From: Candidatus Kryptobacter tengchongensis
GTDB taxonomy: Bacteria > Bacteroidota > Ignavibacteria > Kryptoniales > Kryptoniaceae
Direction of reading: 5' to 3'
DNA: 64,000 bases
Assembly (NCBI GenBank): GCA_001485605.1
Contig: FAON01000016.1
Span: 1-64,000, forward strand
Below are positions 7,319 to 19,501 of this stretch, piece by piece. The notes under the pieces were generated by a model. It had not been told where the DNA came from. It did not search any database and worked only from the letters and a program-made list of their open reading frames with translations. The stretch's first letter is position 1. Each line of letters begins with the position of its first letter. The position numbers and the translations under genes are program-made.

Positions 7319-9685
7319 TTATTCAGGAAATTTATTTAAAATCAAATTTATAAGAGTTGACCTGATGAAACCACTTTGAATTCCAAAAAGTGATGGGACG
7401 GGATAAAATTTGATTTCGTATTTTTCTTTTATTTTTGCTTTTTCTTTAGCGAAATCAATTGCTCTTTTTAACCCGCCAAGTTCGTCAACAAGTTTTAAAT
7501 TCAATGCCTGTGTTCCTGTGTAAACTTTTCCCTGTGCTAATTTTTCAACTTCATCAAGTGTCATGTTTCTGTTCTCTGCGACTTTTTGTTTAAAGTTAAG
7601 GTAAGTATATTGAAGTGCGTTCTCAATGCCTTTTCTTTCAATTTCGGTCCAGTGCCTTGTGGTTGAGAACATATCAGAATGTTCGCCTTTTTTATAAGTT
7701 TCAATTTTTATTTTCATGTTTTCATAAAGTTTTTCAAGCACAGGTTTTGAATAAACAACCCCGATGCTCCCTGTTAAAGTTGCTGGATTTGCAAAAATTC
7801 TATCCGAGCTGCACGCAACATAATAGCCTCCGCTTGCTGCAACATTTCCAAATGAAATTATAACTGGTTTCTTTTTTCTTGCTTCCTTCAATGCAGTGTA
7901 AATTTCATTTGAAGCAAGTGCAGAGCCACCGCCACTGTTAACTCTCAAGACTATCGCTTTTACGCTTTTATCTTTTACAGCAGAATTGATTTGTTTGACA
8001 ACTGTTTCAGAACCTGTTAATCTCTCATCAAGAAATGGAAATGGTAAAGGTGGTTGACTTTCACCTGTTACAATTGCGCCGTGGACTCCGATGACGGCAA
8101 TTTTGGGTATCACGCCCCATGTTTTATCCCAGTATCTTCTTTTGTCAAGTTTTATCAGGTTAACATTTTCATCATCACGGTTGTTTGCAAGTTTATTTAT
8201 CAATCTTTTAGCTTCGCTGTAGAAACCAATTTCATCAATAAGCCCGATTTCTTTAGCTCTTGGTGGTATCATTCCACCTGAAATCTCTTCAATGAGTTCT
8301 TCTGTAAAGTTTATATTTCTTGATCTTGAAATTTGTTCTATCATTTGTTTGTGAATTTCTTCAACAAGGGATTTTATCAGTTCGGCTTGATTTTGTGTTG
8401 CTGAATCCGTGTAAATTGAGTGGAAGGTTGATTTGTATTCCCCTGCGGTCATTGCGTCCCATTCAATTCCAAATTTTTCAAAAAAGCTTTTCAATCTTGA
8501 TACATCTATAACGGCGCCATATCCGACGATCATACCTTCGGGAGCTATGACGATTTTGTCAGCGATGCTTGCAAGGTAAAGCTCATTAACCCCAACCATT
8601 TCACCGCCAAGGTAAGCGACAACAGGTTTACCTGCTTTCTTAACTTTTTTTACCGCTTCAGCAAGTTCCTGCGTCAGTCCTTCAAGTTCGTAAAGTTTAA
8701 CTTCGCCATTAAATGGATAAATTTTAAGCAAAAGCCCATTTATATCCCTATCATCCGCTGACCTTTCAATTTCATTGATGATGTCGTGCACGCTTTTCCT
8801 TGGTTTTGAAAGGAGTGAGGGTTGTTCTTTATAATCTGGCATGATTCCACGAATTTCAATTTCTGCTATTTTTTTAATTGGATATGCAAATGTTGGCATC
8901 ACTTCCCGGGTGAAAAAGGCAGATGCGGTTGCTTTTGTGTTTGAGTTGTCGGGATTTGTGAAAATTTTTATCCCAATGTTTTGGAGGTTTATTGAAAATC
9001 CGAAAATGAAAGTTTTTTTATCAGAGAAAGTTTTTGAATTGTCAAGCATAGCAAAAAGATTGAAGCCGTTTATTAGTTTAAATTCAGCACCAATTTTAAA
9101 GTTTTTAATTTTTTGTTTTTCTTTAATGAAAATGTCGGATGAAAGAGTTAAAATATCATTTCCAAGTGGGCGAATTCCAAATCCAGCAATGTAACTTTTT
9201 TCAAGCGGTGTGCTTTGAAAATGTTTTCCTGTTAAGTTATAAGCGGTTAAAGAAAGTGAAATGAAATTAAACGGTCTTGAGATAATCCCAGCATTTATGG
9301 CTGTTTTAAACCTTTCATCGTTGATTTTAAAGTAATCAAAACCAAGCCCAAGTGCAAGCTCTTCTGTTCCAAATCCAGTTGAAGTTGAGATCAAAAGCGA
9401 TGTTTTCTCCTGTATCTTTGTTCTTTTTAGTGCAAAACCAAATCGCATCGTTTGAAGGTAAAACCCAGCGTCATAATTTTTGAGTGATAATTCCCCCGAT
9501 GGTGAAAGATAAAGGGAGAAGTTTGTTTGGTGTTTAAAACCCAAGCTCGCTGGATTAAGTCGTAAGGCTTCTGAACCTTCTGATGTTGCTGTAAAAAGAT
9601 ATCGTTCAAGGTTTGGCAAATATAAATTTTGGGCAACTGTGATGGCAGTTGTTAAAATTAAAACAACAATAAATTTTGCCTTCAT
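7319..9685 (-). CDS. sppA: Signal peptide peptidase SppA with N-terminal beta-barrel-like domain
   Basis: SppA is a Ser-Lys protease that degrades signal peptides and envelope peptides. The C-terminal ~510 of 788 residues form the usual duplicated SppA fold. The predicted catalytic Lys is K418 (in AGEYKSTF) and the nucleophile S618 (in VAASGGYY). Their spacing of 200 equals that of K209 and S409 in E. coli SppA. Before this sits an extra ~260-residue region after a signal peptide (cleavage near VAQ). It is made of alternating strands such as [26 protein letters not shown] and [17 protein letters not shown], which look like an outer-membrane barrel or surface beta-domain. This suggests an SppA held at the outer membrane rather than the inner one. 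It is the first gene of the sppA-fusion-nadE run. Confidence 0.9.
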
Positions 9686-9767
9686 TGAGAAAACCTATTT
9701 TTATTTTCCTTTGGTTCAAAGTTAAGCAAAGAAAAAAAGATATTCAATTTTTAAAATGCGAAAACTT

Positions 9768-9798
9768 TTGATTAGATTTAATGAAGTAAAAATAAAAT
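9768..9798 (+). promoter_or_regulatory. Possible queF promoter
   Basis: TTGATT (9768-9773) is followed 19 nt later by TAAAAT (9793-9798). The spacing is long, but the start site would fall near 9805, only some 7 nt before the queF ATG, implying a very short leader. No preQ1 riboswitch can fit there. The rest of the 126-bp divergent gap would hold the sppA promoter, which I could not define. Confidence 0.3.
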
Positions 9799-9811
9799 TT
9801 GTCTCAAATCT

Positions 9812-10207
9812 ATGGAGGATAGAAAACTCAAATACGGTGAGGAAGCGATACTTAATGCACAACTTGAGACATGGGAGAATCCTTATCCCGATAGGGATTA
9901 TAAGATTGAGATAACTTTTCCAGAGTTCACATGCCTTTGTCCGAGGTCTGGTTATCCTGATTTTGCGACAATAAAAATAGTTTATATTCCAGACAAGTAT
10001 ATCGTTGAGCTTCGTTCTCTTAAACTTTACCTCAATAAGTATAGGAATGAGTATATTTCGCATGAGGCAGCAACAAATAAAATTTATGATGATCTTGAAA
10101 AGCTCTTAAAGCCGAGGTTTCTTGAGGTGGTTGGTGATTGGAATCCAAGGGGTAATGTGAAGACGATCATAACTGTTTCATCAAAGGACAAACAATTGGT
10201 TAAATAA
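9812..10207 (+). CDS. queF: NADPH-dependent 7-cyano-7-deazaguanine reductase
   Basis: QueF reduces preQ0 to preQ1 in queuosine synthesis, using NADPH. The 131-residue unimodular protein shows [14 protein letters not shown] (39-52), with the predicted catalytic Cys C43 and the proton-relay Asp D50. It also has the QueF signature [14 protein letters not shown] (66-79) and the substrate-binding His-Glu pair in ISHEAATN. Many homologues have Gln where Tyr 48 occurs. The start has no good ribosome site upstream; GGAGG occurs inside the first codons, consistent with a short-leader message. It ends base to base with the convergent nikR. The later pathway enzyme queA is at 59403. Confidence 0.95.
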
Positions 10208-15681: not shown

Positions 15682-16800
15682 TTACCATCCTTCGAAAATT
15701 CCGCCGTCAACATAATCCCAGAGAATAAAACCAACATAACGATATTTGAAAGGTTTATCACCGTAAACCGGTATTTCCCTGCCAATTGAGATCGCAAGAT
15801 GTCCACGCTTTGTCAAGGCTATATAGATTTTAGGGACAATTGAAATTGTATGTTCATCCATTCCAAGTGTTTTTGTTCCAACAAGTTCAATTCCGGGGAA
15901 AATTCCTCTTTTGCCTTCTGGAATTGAAAGTGTCGTTGAAAGGGCATATATCAATTCGGGATTTCCCTTGCTTTTGTTCGTGGGTGCTTCAATTTTTATG
16001 CTTCCTTGAAGTTCAATTTTTTCACCGATTCCCTTTGCACCTGCAAAATAAGGTATAAGAAAAACTGTTCCTTTGCCAAATCCTTTCGTTTCGCTCCCGG
16101 TTGGAAGAGAAAGTTCAAAACCAGTTGTTAAAATAAGCATGCTCTTATAATTGTCATAAAACGCATACTTCAAGCCAAGTTCAAGATCTCCAATACCTGT
16201 CGTGTTATTAACCGTTGATTTCAGATTTTGTAGTGGAAGTTTGACTTCGTATTGAAATCTTGAACCAAATCTGTTCGCATAGTATAGAATAATTTTTGAA
16301 TTACTTGCACCAGATGTTTCTCTGGTAAAGGTTGGGATTAATAGAAATTCTTGTTCGGGGTAAGCTTTTGTCGCATAGTGTGCACGAATAAAGTTAAGTT
16401 CGCCTTGGGGATATTTTCTCTGGTTAACAAAGGATTTTATGTGTTCAATTATCTCGTAAATTTGTTGTTCACTGAATATTTCTCCAAAAGCTGGCATTGT
16501 TTGAGATAGACCACGGGCATTCCCTCCATATTTTATCACCGCATACCAGTCTTTTCTTGCTTCTCTTGAGTTGAAATATCCGTCTGTGAAATCTGGCGGT
16601 GGGACATCCCAACTTTCTTTTACTTCTTCAGGTATGTTCCCCTTCCCATCTATACCATGGCATTTTGCACAAAATACTTCGTAAATTTGTTTCCCATTCA
16701 TTGTTTTTATCGCTTCAAAATCAATTGCCTGTTCTGTGGTGTCCTGTTGTGCAAAGATCAATCCAGTTGTGAGAAGGACGACAAAAATAATTTTGTTCAT
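15682..16800 (-). CDS. Cytochrome c fused to outer-membrane beta-barrel-like domain
   Basis: Of 372 residues, 1-18 form a signal peptide and about 30-125 a class I cytochrome c: haem motif C44-A-K-C47-H48 and the probable axial Met M102 in TMPAFGE. From about 140 to the end there are alternating beta strands (GIGDLELGLKYAFY, TGFELSLPTGSET, KIELQGSIKIEAP). These recall the MetA-pathway outer-membrane protein family. A haem domain on a barrel is the layout of Cyc2-type outer-membrane cytochromes, but I cannot show homology to Cyc2. It could carry electrons across or at the outer membrane. It lies 29 nt downstream of the DUF2231 gene and is probably co-transcribed with it. Confidence 0.8.
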   Translation of the reverse strand: MNKIIFVVLLTTGLIFAQQDTTEQAIDFEAIKTMNGKQIYEVFCAKCHGIDGKGNIPEEVKESWDVPPPDFTDGYFNSREARKDWYAVIKYGGNARGLSQTMPAFGEIFSEQQIYEIIEHIKSFVNQRKYPQGELNFIRAHYATKAYPEQEFLLIPTFTRETSGASNSKIILYYANRFGSRFQYEVKLPLQNLKSTVNNTTGIGDLELGLKYAFYDNYKSMLILTTGFELSLPTGSETKGFGKGTVFLIPYFAGAKGIGEKIELQGSIKIEAPTNKSKGNPELIYALSTTLSIPEGKRGIFPGIELVGTKTLGMDEHTISIVPKIYIALTKRGHLAISIGREIPVYGDKPFKYRYVGFILWDYVDGGIFEGW

Positions 16801-16829
16801 AGTTTTAAATTTTTGTTTGTTTTTAGAGT

Positions 16830-17255
16830 TTAATAAAGAATGCCAACGCCGTGTTTATAAACAAGTTCTCCACCTCTTAATCCTGTTTGAACTAAAAAGA
16901 ACATGCCAACAAGCGAGATTACAAAGACTATGAGATTCGTTTTGAAGTTAAACTTTCCGGTTCGCATCAGAATCACTTTCAAAATAAATGCGATAAAGAA
17001 AGTAATCCCGGTAAGTTTTGCGAATGTTTCATGGGATTCAATTAATTCTTCAAGATGTGAGACTTTTTCAAAGTTTTCGGCAGATGCCTCACCAGATAAA
17101 ATTGATGGAACAACAAAAATCAAACCTAACAAAAGGAGAAGAACCGACGAATTTTTAATCCAATCCTTTTGGAAAATCATCCAGAGTATTTCAAAGAGGA
17201 CATAGCTTGTTAGGAGGGCGATCGGGAAATGAACAAGCATTGGATGAAGTGGCAT
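16830..17255 (-). CDS. DUF2231-like four-helix membrane protein
   Basis: The start at 17255 gives MPLHPMLVHFPIALL, the characteristic beginning of DUF2231 proteins, with AAGG upstream; a longer reading frame exists but adds an atypical leader. The 141-residue product has four hydrophobic helices, with His residues at the start (HPMLVHFP) and end (GGELVYKHGVG), both typical of the family. DUF2231 genes are often found with cytochromes, and here the next gene encodes a cytochrome c-barrel fusion. Haem or quinone interaction is plausible but unproven. The gene diverges from the two-component system at 17418. Confidence 0.75.
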   Translation of the reverse strand: MPLHPMLVHFPIALLTSYVLFEILWMIFQKDWIKNSSVLLLLLGLIFVVPSILSGEASAENFEKVSHLEELIESHETFAKLTGITFFIAFILKVILMRTGKFNFKTNLIVFVISLVGMFFLVQTGLRGGELVYKHGVGILY

Positions 17256-17417
17256 AGTTTTAACCTTTTTTAGTTTGTAATTTAAGATATAAAGCATTAG
17301 AAAAACATTAAAACGAGATTAGAGTTTATTAATTAAGCGCAGAAAACTTGCTTGTAAATTTTGACGGAATTAACTTTGTTATGGTTACACGATAAACAAA
17401 TAAAATTTAAAGTTGCT

Positions 17418-18086
17418 ATGAAATTGCTTTTGATTGAAGACGAGAAAGATTTGACCAGAACGCTAAAAAAGGGGCTTAAAGAGGCAGGTTATAATGTTGA
17501 TGTGGCATATGATGGCGAATCTGGCGTTTTTATGGCAGTTTCTGGCGAATATGATTGTGTAATTCTTGATTTCAAATTGCCAAAAAAGGACGGGCTTGAA
17601 GTTTGCAGGGAAATAAGAAGAAATAAGATCTCAACTCCGATTTTGATGCTTACCGTTGTTGATGCGGTTGATATGAAAGTTAAATGTTTGGATGCCGGGG
17701 CTGATGATTATCTCACAAAACCATTTTCATTTTCGGAGCTCCTTGCGAGGATAAGGGCTTTGACGAGGCGTGCGAAAACAGCGTCATCATCAATTCAAAT
17801 TGCCGACCTTGTCATCAATCCCATAAGCAGAACCGTAATGAGAGGAGGCAAGAAAATTTATCTTTCTCCAAAGGAATATGATCTACTTTATTATCTTGCG
17901 ATAAATCAAAACAAGGTGCTGACACGTATGGAGATAGCTGAAAATGTCTGGGGGATAAATTTTGACACCGGGACGAACTATATTGATGTTTATATCAATT
18001 ACTTGCGAAATAAAATTGACAAGGGATTTGATAAAAAACTGATTCATACTGTTCGTGGCGTTGGCTATGTTTTAAAGGTGGAATAA
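17418..18086 (+). CDS. OmpR/PhoB-family response regulator
   Basis: The start ATG at 17418 gives MKLLLIEDEKDL; the longer in-frame reading adds an unlikely leader. The receiver domain (1-115) has the acidic pair E7/D8, phosphorylation site D51 in CVILDFKLP, and the conserved Lys in YLTKPFS. The C-terminal winged helix (about 125-222) contains LSPKEYDLLYYLA and VRGVGYVLKVE. It is followed by a sensor kinase 14 nt later. Its divergent position from the DUF2231-cytochrome operon makes that operon a possible target. Confidence 0.95.
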   Translation: MKLLLIEDEKDLTRTLKKGLKEAGYNVDVAYDGESGVFMAVSGEYDCVILDFKLPKKDGLEVCREIRRNKISTPILMLTVVDAVDMKVKCLDAGADDYLTKPFSFSELLARIRALTRRAKTASSSIQIADLVINPISRTVMRGGKKIYLSPKEYDLLYYLAINQNKVLTRMEIAENVWGINFDTGTNYIDVYINYLRNKIDKGFDKKLIHTVRGVGYVLKVE

Positions 18087-18100
18087 AATTTTAAATTGAA

Positions 18101-19501
18101 ATGAACTACAAATCGTTAAAATTTAGGCTTAACTTGTGGTATCTTCTTGTTTTTGTCCTTGCGGTTTTGATATCTGAGATTGGAATTTATATATATCTTG
18201 ACAGGTCACTTCATAAAGAACTTGACATCTTGCTGATGAAGGAAGCGGAGGAACTTACAGGTAAGATAAAGTTTGATGGTGGAAGTTTTATATTTGTTGA
18301 TTCAACTGAGTTTTATGAGGCGGAACATTTTCACTTGAATGAGGCATCGGTCTTTTTCAGGGTGTTGGATGAAAATTTAAATGTTGTTGCTGTATCTGAA
18401 AATTTGAAGAAATGGAATTTTCAAATACCCAAGCCGAGCAAAGAAAAGCTTGGTCGTGCGGATGAAATTACAATAAATGGGGAAAGATTACGAATTTTTT
18501 ATCATCCTATTTATTCGGAGGGCAAATTTCGGGGGGTTGTGGAGACATCAAAGTTTGAGGGAACTGTGCAGACGGCGATGGGACTTTTAAGAACTTCGCT
18601 TATCCTTGCTGTTGTGCTTGCATTTATCATTGCATCGTATGGTGGGAATTTGATTGTTTCAAAGTTAATAAGTCCGCTTGAACAGGTGATAGAAAAAGCT
18701 GATAAGATAACGGCTGAAAATTTAACTGAAAGAATTGAGTTGAAAGATGGAAAATATCCAGATGAAATTATAAAGCTTGTGAATGCGATCAACAGATTAC
18801 TTGAGAGATTGGAAAAATCATTCAGGCAAATATCTCAATTCACATCCGATGTCGCCCACGAGCTTTTAACACCGCTCTCTGTTATAAAAGACGAGGTTGA
18901 AATAACATTGATGAAGAAAAGACGCTTAAGCGAGTATATTAACACTTTAAATTTAATTCAGAAACAAACGGACAGAACGATTTCAATAATAAAATCAATG
19001 CTTTATCTTGCTAAAGCTGATGCTGGAATTGTAAGAGCGAATACGCAAAAGGTTTATTTAAACGATTTAATTCGTGAATTGATTTTAACATTCAATTTGA
19101 AAGCAAAGCAGAAAAATGTGAAATTGAAATTTTATTGTAATTCCGATGTCGTTATAAATACGGATGAGAAACTTCTTTTTGAAGCTTTGCGAAACATAAT
19201 TGACAATGCAATTGAATATACTGGCTCTGGTGGTAAAGTTGAAGTAACCTGCGAAAGGATAGATGACAAGGTGAAAATTACCGTATCAGATACGGGGATT
19301 GGAATTAGCGAGGATGAGTTACCTTATATTTTTGACAGGTTTTATCGGGGTAAAAACGCTTTTGAAATAAATCCATCTGGAACAGGTCTTGGTCTTTCTC
19401 TCACAAAAGCCATAATTGAAATCCTCTCGGGTCAAATTAAAGTTTCAAGCCAACTTGGAAAAGGGACGGAATTTGTGATTTACCTTCCCGAGAAATTATA
19501 G
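18101..19501 (+). CDS. Sensor histidine kinase (CusS/heavy-metal type)
   Basis: The 466-residue kinase has two membrane helices (about 12-33 and 163-182) around a ~130-residue periplasmic sensor. A HAMP domain (183-240) follows, then the phospho-acceptor H253 in DVAHELLTPLS and an ATPase domain with the N box (NIIDNAIEYT), DTGIGI and GTGLGLSLTKAI. The order and size match CusS/CzcS-like metal sensors or related envelope-stress kinases. It pairs with the regulator just upstream. The signal is unknown; the sensor has several His and acidic residues (EAEHFHLNE) that could bind metal. Confidence 0.93.
   Translation: MNYKSLKFRLNLWYLLVFVLAVLISEIGIYIYLDRSLHKELDILLMKEAEELTGKIKFDGGSFIFVDSTEFYEAEHFHLNEASVFFRVLDENLNVVAVSENLKKWNFQIPKPSKEKLGRADEITINGERLRIFYHPIYSEGKFRGVVETSKFEGTVQTAMGLLRTSLILAVVLAFIIASYGGNLIVSKLISPLEQVIEKADKITAENLTERIELKDGKYPDEIIKLVNAINRLLERLEKSFRQISQFTSDVAHELLTPLSVIKDEVEITLMKKRRLSEYINTLNLIQKQTDRTISIIKSMLYLAKADAGIVRANTQKVYLNDLIRELILTFNLKAKQKNVKLKFYCNSDVVINTDEKLLFEALRNIIDNAIEYTGSGGKVEVTCERIDDKVKITVSDTGIGISEDELPYIFDRFYRGKNAFEINPSGTGLGLSLTKAIIEILSGQIKVSSQLGKGTEFVIYLPEKL

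Follow-up and report, generated by a model that had tools for sequence, protein, structure and literature searches.

The window, by which we mean the whole stretch of 64,000 nucleotides analysed here, belongs to the 2.68 Mb genome of the hot-spring bacterium Candidatus Kryptobacter tengchongensis (G000 in the following) and contains four adjoining genes of interest (Table 1). On the minus strand, a gene for a DUF2231 membrane protein is transcribed first and is followed by CB, a fusion of a cytochrome c with a predicted barrel. A response regulator gene and a histidine kinase gene diverge from this pair. The coordinates given in the original prediction were correct (CB at 15682-16800 on the minus strand; DUF2231 starting at 17255 and stopping at 16830), and the divergent two-component system that it had placed beside DUF2231-CB is kept in 6/6 Kryptonia genomes carrying CB. 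The kinase-regulator/DUF2231-CB order is constant in these six genomes, while the outer flanking genes on both sides of the four-gene cassette differ between Kryptonia lineages. This is good evidence that the cassette is a functional unit.

In the divergent intergenic region, the block GATTAGAGTTTATTAAT at 17317-17333 is mostly or nearly invariant in the six Kryptonia and, judging by this conservation, may be a candidate site of the regulator. Promoter and terminator scans performed no better than shuffles (4 vs 5.4 and 1 vs 1.5, respectively).

Table 1. Features of the cassette in the window, and cupredoxin-like genes in other loci. Residue numbers refer to the encoded proteins.
Feature	Position	Strand	Basis
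CB (cytochrome c-barrel fusion), 372 aa	15682..16800, stop included	minus	ORF and domain matches; orthologues (75-81% identity) in 5/6 other same-genus genomes
CB signal peptide, residues 1-17	16750..16800	minus	by eye: charged start, hydrophobic run; helix 3-16 in model
CB class-I cytochrome c domain, residues 34-127	16420..16701	minus	PF13442, PF00034
CB haem c attachment motif C44-A-K-C47-H48	16657..16671	minus	83/83 aligned sequences
CB M102, likely second axial haem ligand	16495..16497	minus	83/83; His-Met spacing 51-56 residues
CB linker, residues 128-149	16354..16419	minus	most conserved stretch of the family
CB 12-stranded barrel (predicted), residues 150-362	15715..16353	minus	AlphaFold2 model, fold matches, PF13557
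CB C-terminal W372	15685..15687	minus	aligned W in 83/83
DUF2231 four-helix membrane protein, 141 aa	16830..17255	minus	PF09990 1e-17; model pLDDT 91, four helices
DUF2231 invariant H4	17244..17246	minus	18/18
DUF2231 invariant H75	17031..17033	minus	18/18
Divergent intergenic region	17256..17417	.	between DUF2231 and response regulator genes
OmpR-type response regulator	17418..18086	plus	domain matches; ATG at 17418, conserved start
Sensor histidine kinase	18101..19501	plus	domain matches
Cupredoxin-like genes	L073:9105-9911; L079:2609-3364; L132:7081-7887, 9096-9860; L173:18370-18999		homology

Cytochrome, linker and barrel of CB

The N-terminal part of CB matches Cytochrome_CBB3 (PF13442) at 7.3e-10 and Cytochrom_C (PF00034) at 2.2e-8. 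Conservation was read from an alignment of 83 CB sequences, made up of the window, two Kryptonia genomes and 80 loci (the best 80 of 164 relatives). The residues C44, C47, H48 and M102, from which a haem c domain had originally been proposed, are present and invariant in 83/83, as are P103 and W372. Cys 74 and Cys 125 occur together in 70 of these sequences, are both missing in 11 (including all six Kryptonia) and occur singly in 2, a pattern that makes a disulfide between them likely in most members. Mean pairwise identity is highest in the linker (0.68 for residues 128-151), followed by the cytochrome (0.52) and the barrel (0.43).

In the case of the C-terminal part, which had been described as barrel-like, the profile and the predicted fold both point to a barrel. 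CB matches Phenol_MetA_deg (PF13557) at 4.3e-6 with 27.4 bits, the cut-off being 22; one of two other family members scanned reached 19.9 bits and the other had no match. The AlphaFold2 model, built on a shallow alignment of 18 relatives, has a mean pLDDT of 79 and 12 long strands over residues 150-362, with a pLDDT below 50 for residues 365-372. When this predicted model was compared with known structures (VIA-align), the best match was FapF (5o65; Z 23.1, 219 residues, 2.5 A), and the COG4313 channel of Pseudomonas putida also matched well (4rl8; Z 21.9, 216 residues, 2.6 A). The KdgM group ranked lower, with Z 18.8, and so did autotransporters, with Z about 17.

CB can be superposed on 4rl8 from residue 142 onwards. 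In that channel the segment before strand 1 is described as folding into the lumen, and the 12-strand pore as narrow, with 10-12 A in the absence of the plug; the COG4313 relatives are presented there as uptake channels for hydrophobic molecules (excerpts of PMC4493636). As the linker is the most conserved stretch of CB and occupies the same place as the lumen segment of 4rl8, it may plug the barrel, which would put the cytochrome at the periplasmic mouth. On the predicted model, the CB linker is likely to correspond to the N-terminus that plugs the lumen in COG4313 channels.

DUF2231 and the divergent two-component system

The neighbour with conserved histidines was correctly recognised as DUF2231, since PF09990 is matched with 65 bits (cut-off 26.4) and H4 and H75 are invariant in 18/18 sequences, together with G55 and G128. 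The protein has the conserved start MPxHP and was modelled as four helices with a pLDDT of 91. Loop charge (2.3 and 2.6 Lys/Arg per sequence on one side) places the invariant residues at the periplasmic face. Deriving a function from the fold was tried and given up: every match had an E above 0.5, and the proteins matched were designed ones, respiratory subunits and four-helix bundles of a generic kind. A sequence search of the PDB returned chance matches only.

Regarding co-occurrence, DUF2231 adjoins CB in 6/6 Kryptonia but is not a general partner, as in the other genomes searched it lies elsewhere or is absent. Three of nine other DUF2231 proteins scanned (L160, L161, L164) are fused to a PSCyt1 cytochrome domain. 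The cytochrome is of planctomycete type, and the fusions occur once with PSCyt2 and PSD1 and twice with leucine-rich repeats. Taken together with the DUF2231-CB cassette, such domain combinations make an electron-transfer role of DUF2231 plausible. Two more DUF2231 genes of G000 (contigs C5 and C3) have unrelated neighbours and no haem protein nearby, which weakens the view that DUF2231 always serves a cytochrome.

The two-component system had been labelled a metal sensor. The best NCBIfam models were those of heavy-metal subfamilies: for the response regulator cztR/silR/copR (TIGR01387; 256.7, below the cut-off of 279.2), and for the histidine kinase cztS/silS/copS (TIGR01386; 241.4, below the cut-off of 292.55). 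As both scores fall short of the curated cut-offs, this label did not hold as an assignment and describes a resemblance.

Relatives of CB and their gene neighbours

Besides the orthologues within the genus (Table 1), the sixth other genome (G005, 71% complete) gave a weak cytochrome match only. Identity is 78-81% to CB of Kryptonium thompsonii, Chrysopegis kryptomonas and a Kryptonia MAG. Scanning 84,980 species genomes yielded 164 confirmed CB relatives, of which the best 80 were studied. Because the scan was seeded by two conserved peptides, one from the C terminus and one from the cytochrome, it favours members in which both are retained. These best 80 of 164 span at least eight phyla: Kryptonia, Ignavibacteriota, Bacteroidota, Rhodothermota/Balneolota, Acidobacteriota with Aminicenantes, Gemmatimonadota, Latescibacterota, Myxococcota with Thermodesulfobacteriota, Pseudomonadota, Planctomycetota, and single MAGs elsewhere. 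No plasmid-borne CB was found by tblastn in 72,556 plasmid records.

In a 395-genome phylum sample, a barrel-only query picked up another 13 strong relatives, at E 1e-23 or better, in addition to G000 and G021, and 13/13 have the cytochrome domain in front. The original prediction had named homologues without the cytochrome domain as evidence against the fusion; the outcome was the opposite, the domain being kept in every close relative. The same sample holds many paralogous barrel-only proteins of 270 aa at E 1e-4 to 1e-7. One of the 13 strong relatives, L044 (G284:C26:71533-72504), has an in-frame TAG just upstream of the CB haem motif beside an intact pentahaem gene, so that its CB is either a pseudogene or a sequencing error.

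In the maximum-likelihood tree of the 83 sequences, the Kryptonia form a clade with a support of 100/99 (bootstrap/SH-aLRT). Together with L070, L071, L072 and L081 they make up a ten-member clade (100/93) without the pentahaem cytochrome described below, and the other 73 members include all 65 pentahaem loci. The pentahaem label needs three changes on this tree, compared with 16 in shuffles. Altogether this indicates that a pentahaem-linked CB family and a small family free of pentahaem parted long ago, with the CB of the window in the latter. A side observation concerns L143, a MAG labelled Dehalococcoidia, whose CB is almost identical to a gammaproteobacterial one (tree distance 0.01-0.02). 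Chloroflexota have no outer membrane, and this is therefore probably a binning error.

The most frequent neighbour of CB is a pentahaem cytochrome of about 550 aa with five CXXCH motifs, which adjoins it in 65 loci (again among the best 80 of 164). In 64 cases it lies downstream of CB on the same strand, with the genes often overlapping, and in one it is divergent (L128). All five motifs are seen in 63 of the 65 neighbours, L095 and L141 being fragmentary. A close form of this protein was defined by 54-58% identity and E below 1e-180. CB occurs in 15 genomes of the 395-genome sample, the close form in 11 of these, and in 11/11 it adjoins CB; it was found in 0/380 genomes of the sample without CB. 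Neither the seven Kryptonia genomes (0/7) nor G021 has a pentahaem gene, which is why this partner was missed in the original prediction.

The pentahaem partner is weakly like MtrC/MtrF domains, and two sequences scored 28.4 and 30.7 bits with the ExtKL model NF040886, below its cut-off of 250. A lipobox-like motif before the first haem was found in 0/57 sequences tested. Distant pentahaem forms (35-41% identity) occur in ten further genomes of the 395-genome sample that have no CB. A T9SS sorting tail (PF18962) is present in three of four distant forms scanned (L175:4954-6825, L176:4488-6380 and L177:4413-6293), from which export of this branch to the cell surface would follow; going by these tails, they are probable surface cytochromes outside the MtrC/OmcA families.

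A cupredoxin-like protein adjoins CB in three of the 80 loci, with four genes in L073, L079 and L132, the latter having two copies, one on each side. These neighbours share 40-55% identity and the pattern LHN...C-D-x-H-x-W-M, which may be a copper site. Three of the partner proteins gave a weak carboxypeptidase-regulatory match and no Pfam or NCBIfam model above cut-off. A homologue (44-48%) lies beside the aa3-oxidase genes of G000, so that this family with its carboxypeptidase-regulatory-like tail is seen both beside CB and beside oxidase genes. No redox partner next to CB was identified in 9/80 loci (best 80 of 164), namely L070, L071, L072, L080, L081, L085, L122, L131 and L144, the contigs of L070 and L072 ending near CB. 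In L131, a Desulfurellaceae MAG, a VIT1-type iron/manganese transporter gene (L131:9045-9815) directly follows CB, the sole metal link seen.

The genome G000 encodes two haem-copper oxidase subunits, several other cytochromes c and three C554-type multihaem matches. A cluster of C554-type multihaem cytochromes at G000:C4:266543-277915 is a candidate for the iron redox pathway claimed for Kryptonia, which is said to be unique and not homologous to Mtr (excerpt of PMC4737851). CB itself might be among the genes of that proposed pathway in Supplementary Fig. 8 of the same paper.

Proposed electron port and comparison with known systems

From the computed domains, barrel fold, haem-ligand conservation and gene pairings we infer the position of the haem, the exchange of electrons, the contacts with partners and the regulation. 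In this proposal, CB serves as an electron port in the outer membrane; its substrate would be a small redox-active species, and its partners would be exchangeable. Located in the outer membrane, the barrel would be partly plugged by the conserved linker and would hold the haem domain where it opens to the periplasm. A single haem does not reach across the membrane, and a pore of 12 strands is narrow (as described in excerpts of PMC4493636), so that a wire through the barrel is excluded. With one haem and a pore too narrow for a second protein, a small solute would have to come to the haem within or below the pore, as has been proposed for Cyc2 (in the parts of PMC8406198 consulted). Thus, a small redox-active solute, either a metal ion or a small electron shuttle, would enter the narrow pore and swap one electron with the CB haem, which would pass it to a periplasmic or inner-membrane partner. 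This partner is probably the dedicated pentahaem cytochrome in most bacteria, a cupredoxin-like protein in a few and DUF2231 in Kryptonia, with its invariant histidines on the periplasmic side of the inner membrane. Expression of CB in Kryptonia would be controlled by the neighbouring two-component system. As guesses, the inward direction, with electrons flowing from an external donor to an oxidase, seems slightly likelier, and a metal ion such as Fe(II) would come first as substrate.

We give this port, as a whole, an even chance of being correct. It is favoured by the invariance of the haem ligands and W372, the barrel fold, the pentahaem pairing, the cupredoxin-like neighbours, the PSCyt1-DUF2231 fusions, the Kryptonia cassette and the oxidases of G000. 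Counted against it are the single haem and narrow pore, the COG4313 relatives described as hydrophobic-uptake channels, the nine of 80 partnerless loci and the restriction of DUF2231-CB adjacency to Kryptonia, as well as the putative nature of any haem on DUF2231, for which the fold search gave nothing below E 0.5. A broader version is a tentative possibility that we regard as somewhat doubtful: CB would represent a third class of cytochrome-porin that arose independently, with a plugged COG4313 barrel of 12 strands, and would be a standard outer-membrane electron port in many phyla, served by the pentahaem cytochrome in most, by a cupredoxin in some Gemmatimonadota and Acidobacteriota, and by DUF2231 in the hyperthermophilic Kryptonia, DUF2231 then being a new haem- or quinone-binding inner-membrane link.

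CB could also be a substrate channel with a built-in acceptor, taking up hydrophobic or aromatic molecules while its haem, at the periplasmic opening, receives the electrons of their oxidation or works for an attached dehydrogenase. This would fit a barrel of the PF13557/COG4313 type, the ties of COG4313 to hydrophobic uptake (in the excerpts of PMC4493636) and the degradation of aromatics ascribed to Kryptonia (excerpt of PMC4737851). We consider it unlikely, as neither dehydrogenase nor catabolic genes accompany CB in the loci with neighbours tabulated and the steady partner is a multihaem cytochrome. A barrel that does no more than fix the cytochrome c to the outer membrane, so that electrons remain periplasmic, among the pentahaem, cupredoxin or inner-membrane partners, would not need the constraint seen in the linker and barrel (mean identities of 0.68 and 0.43). 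Moreover, the surface-sorting tails of three of the four distant pentahaem relatives scanned suggest that this cytochrome family works outside the cell. Such an anchored carrier, although consistent with the canonical His-Met class-I domain, like that of soluble and CcoP-type cytochromes, and with the lipobox count of 0/57 in the pentahaem partner, therefore appears improbable.

A role in metal stress is a remote prospect in our judgement. Here, the two-component system would sense copper or another metal and CB would oxidise the metal at the outer membrane for detoxification. The regulator and kinase do resemble the CzcRS/CopRS subfamilies, PcoB is among the lower fold matches of CB, and the VIT1 gene adjoins CB in L131; against this, both NCBIfam scores lie below cut-off and the six Kryptonia have no genes for metal efflux on either side of CB.

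Few single-protein outer-membrane electron ports are known (Cyc2, Cyt572), and these are used as marker genes for iron oxidation. As CB relatives occur in many phyla, cultured marine and saline bacteria included, and usually beside a pentahaem cytochrome, they probably represent an unrecognised kind of outer-membrane electron gate. The simple signatures, namely a haem domain, a P-x-G-E linker and a W at the C terminus, together with the constant pentahaem partner open the family to screening and testing. Cultured carriers of the CB-pentahaem pair include Fodinibius sediminis, Vreelandella zhuhanensis and Kineobactrum sediminis. If CB swaps electrons with outside substrates, it would reveal extracellular redox chemistry in unsuspected organisms and would also provide a test of DUF2231 function.

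No description of the CB family was found in the titles and abstract openings listed by searches of the open-access literature. The COG4313/PF13557 channels (Pput2725, 4rl8) and FapF share the 12-stranded fold with CB, which adds a cytochrome c in front; the word cytochrome has 0 occurrences in the COG4313 paper (PMC4493636). The MtrCAB, MtoAB and PioAB systems likewise combine a redox protein with an outer-membrane barrel, but there a 26-strand barrel surrounds a decahaem wire (as outlined in PMC8406198), and CB, with one haem and 12 strands, was excluded as a conduit of this type. In the Geobacter ExtHIJKL system, the periplasmic pentahaem protein ExtKL has an outer-membrane protein next to it (excerpts of PMC6148476), and the CB partner is weakly like ExtKL. 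ExtI is described as integral to the outer membrane and free of haem, whereas CB has a haem of its own. No homologues of ExtH, ExtI or ExtJ were noted.

The closest layout is that of Cyc2 and Cyt572, with a signal peptide, an N-terminal one-haem c domain and then an outer-membrane barrel (as presented in excerpts of PMC8406198 and PMC10654088). This resemblance had been predicted, and the profiles and the predicted fold bear it out. As in Cyc2, the single haem of CB means that the substrate must reach it (same sources). The suggestion of a separate invention is supported as well, as the Cyc2 barrel is reported there to have 16 strands of the OprO/P or PorB type, while that of CB has 12 predicted strands of the COG4313/FapF type. 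The Cyc2 hallmark A.P.FAR[QK][TY] upstream of CXXCH (given in the consulted part of PMC8406198) was searched as P.FAR[QK][TY] and found in 0/83 CB sequences; a PxL after CXXCH, with 2-5 residues between, was also found in 0/83, its position in Cyc2 being four residues after. CB further differs from Cyc2 in its Met ligand, its conserved linker and its own partner gene. Membership of CB in Cyc2 was thus rejected on motifs and barrel type, with the published descriptions of Cyc2 as the reference; Cyc2 was absent from the PDB fold matches listed for CB, which carries no weight either way. In conclusion, fused cytochrome-porins were already known in Cyc2 and Cyt572, and CB is a separate family with another barrel, another cytochrome signature and another partner.
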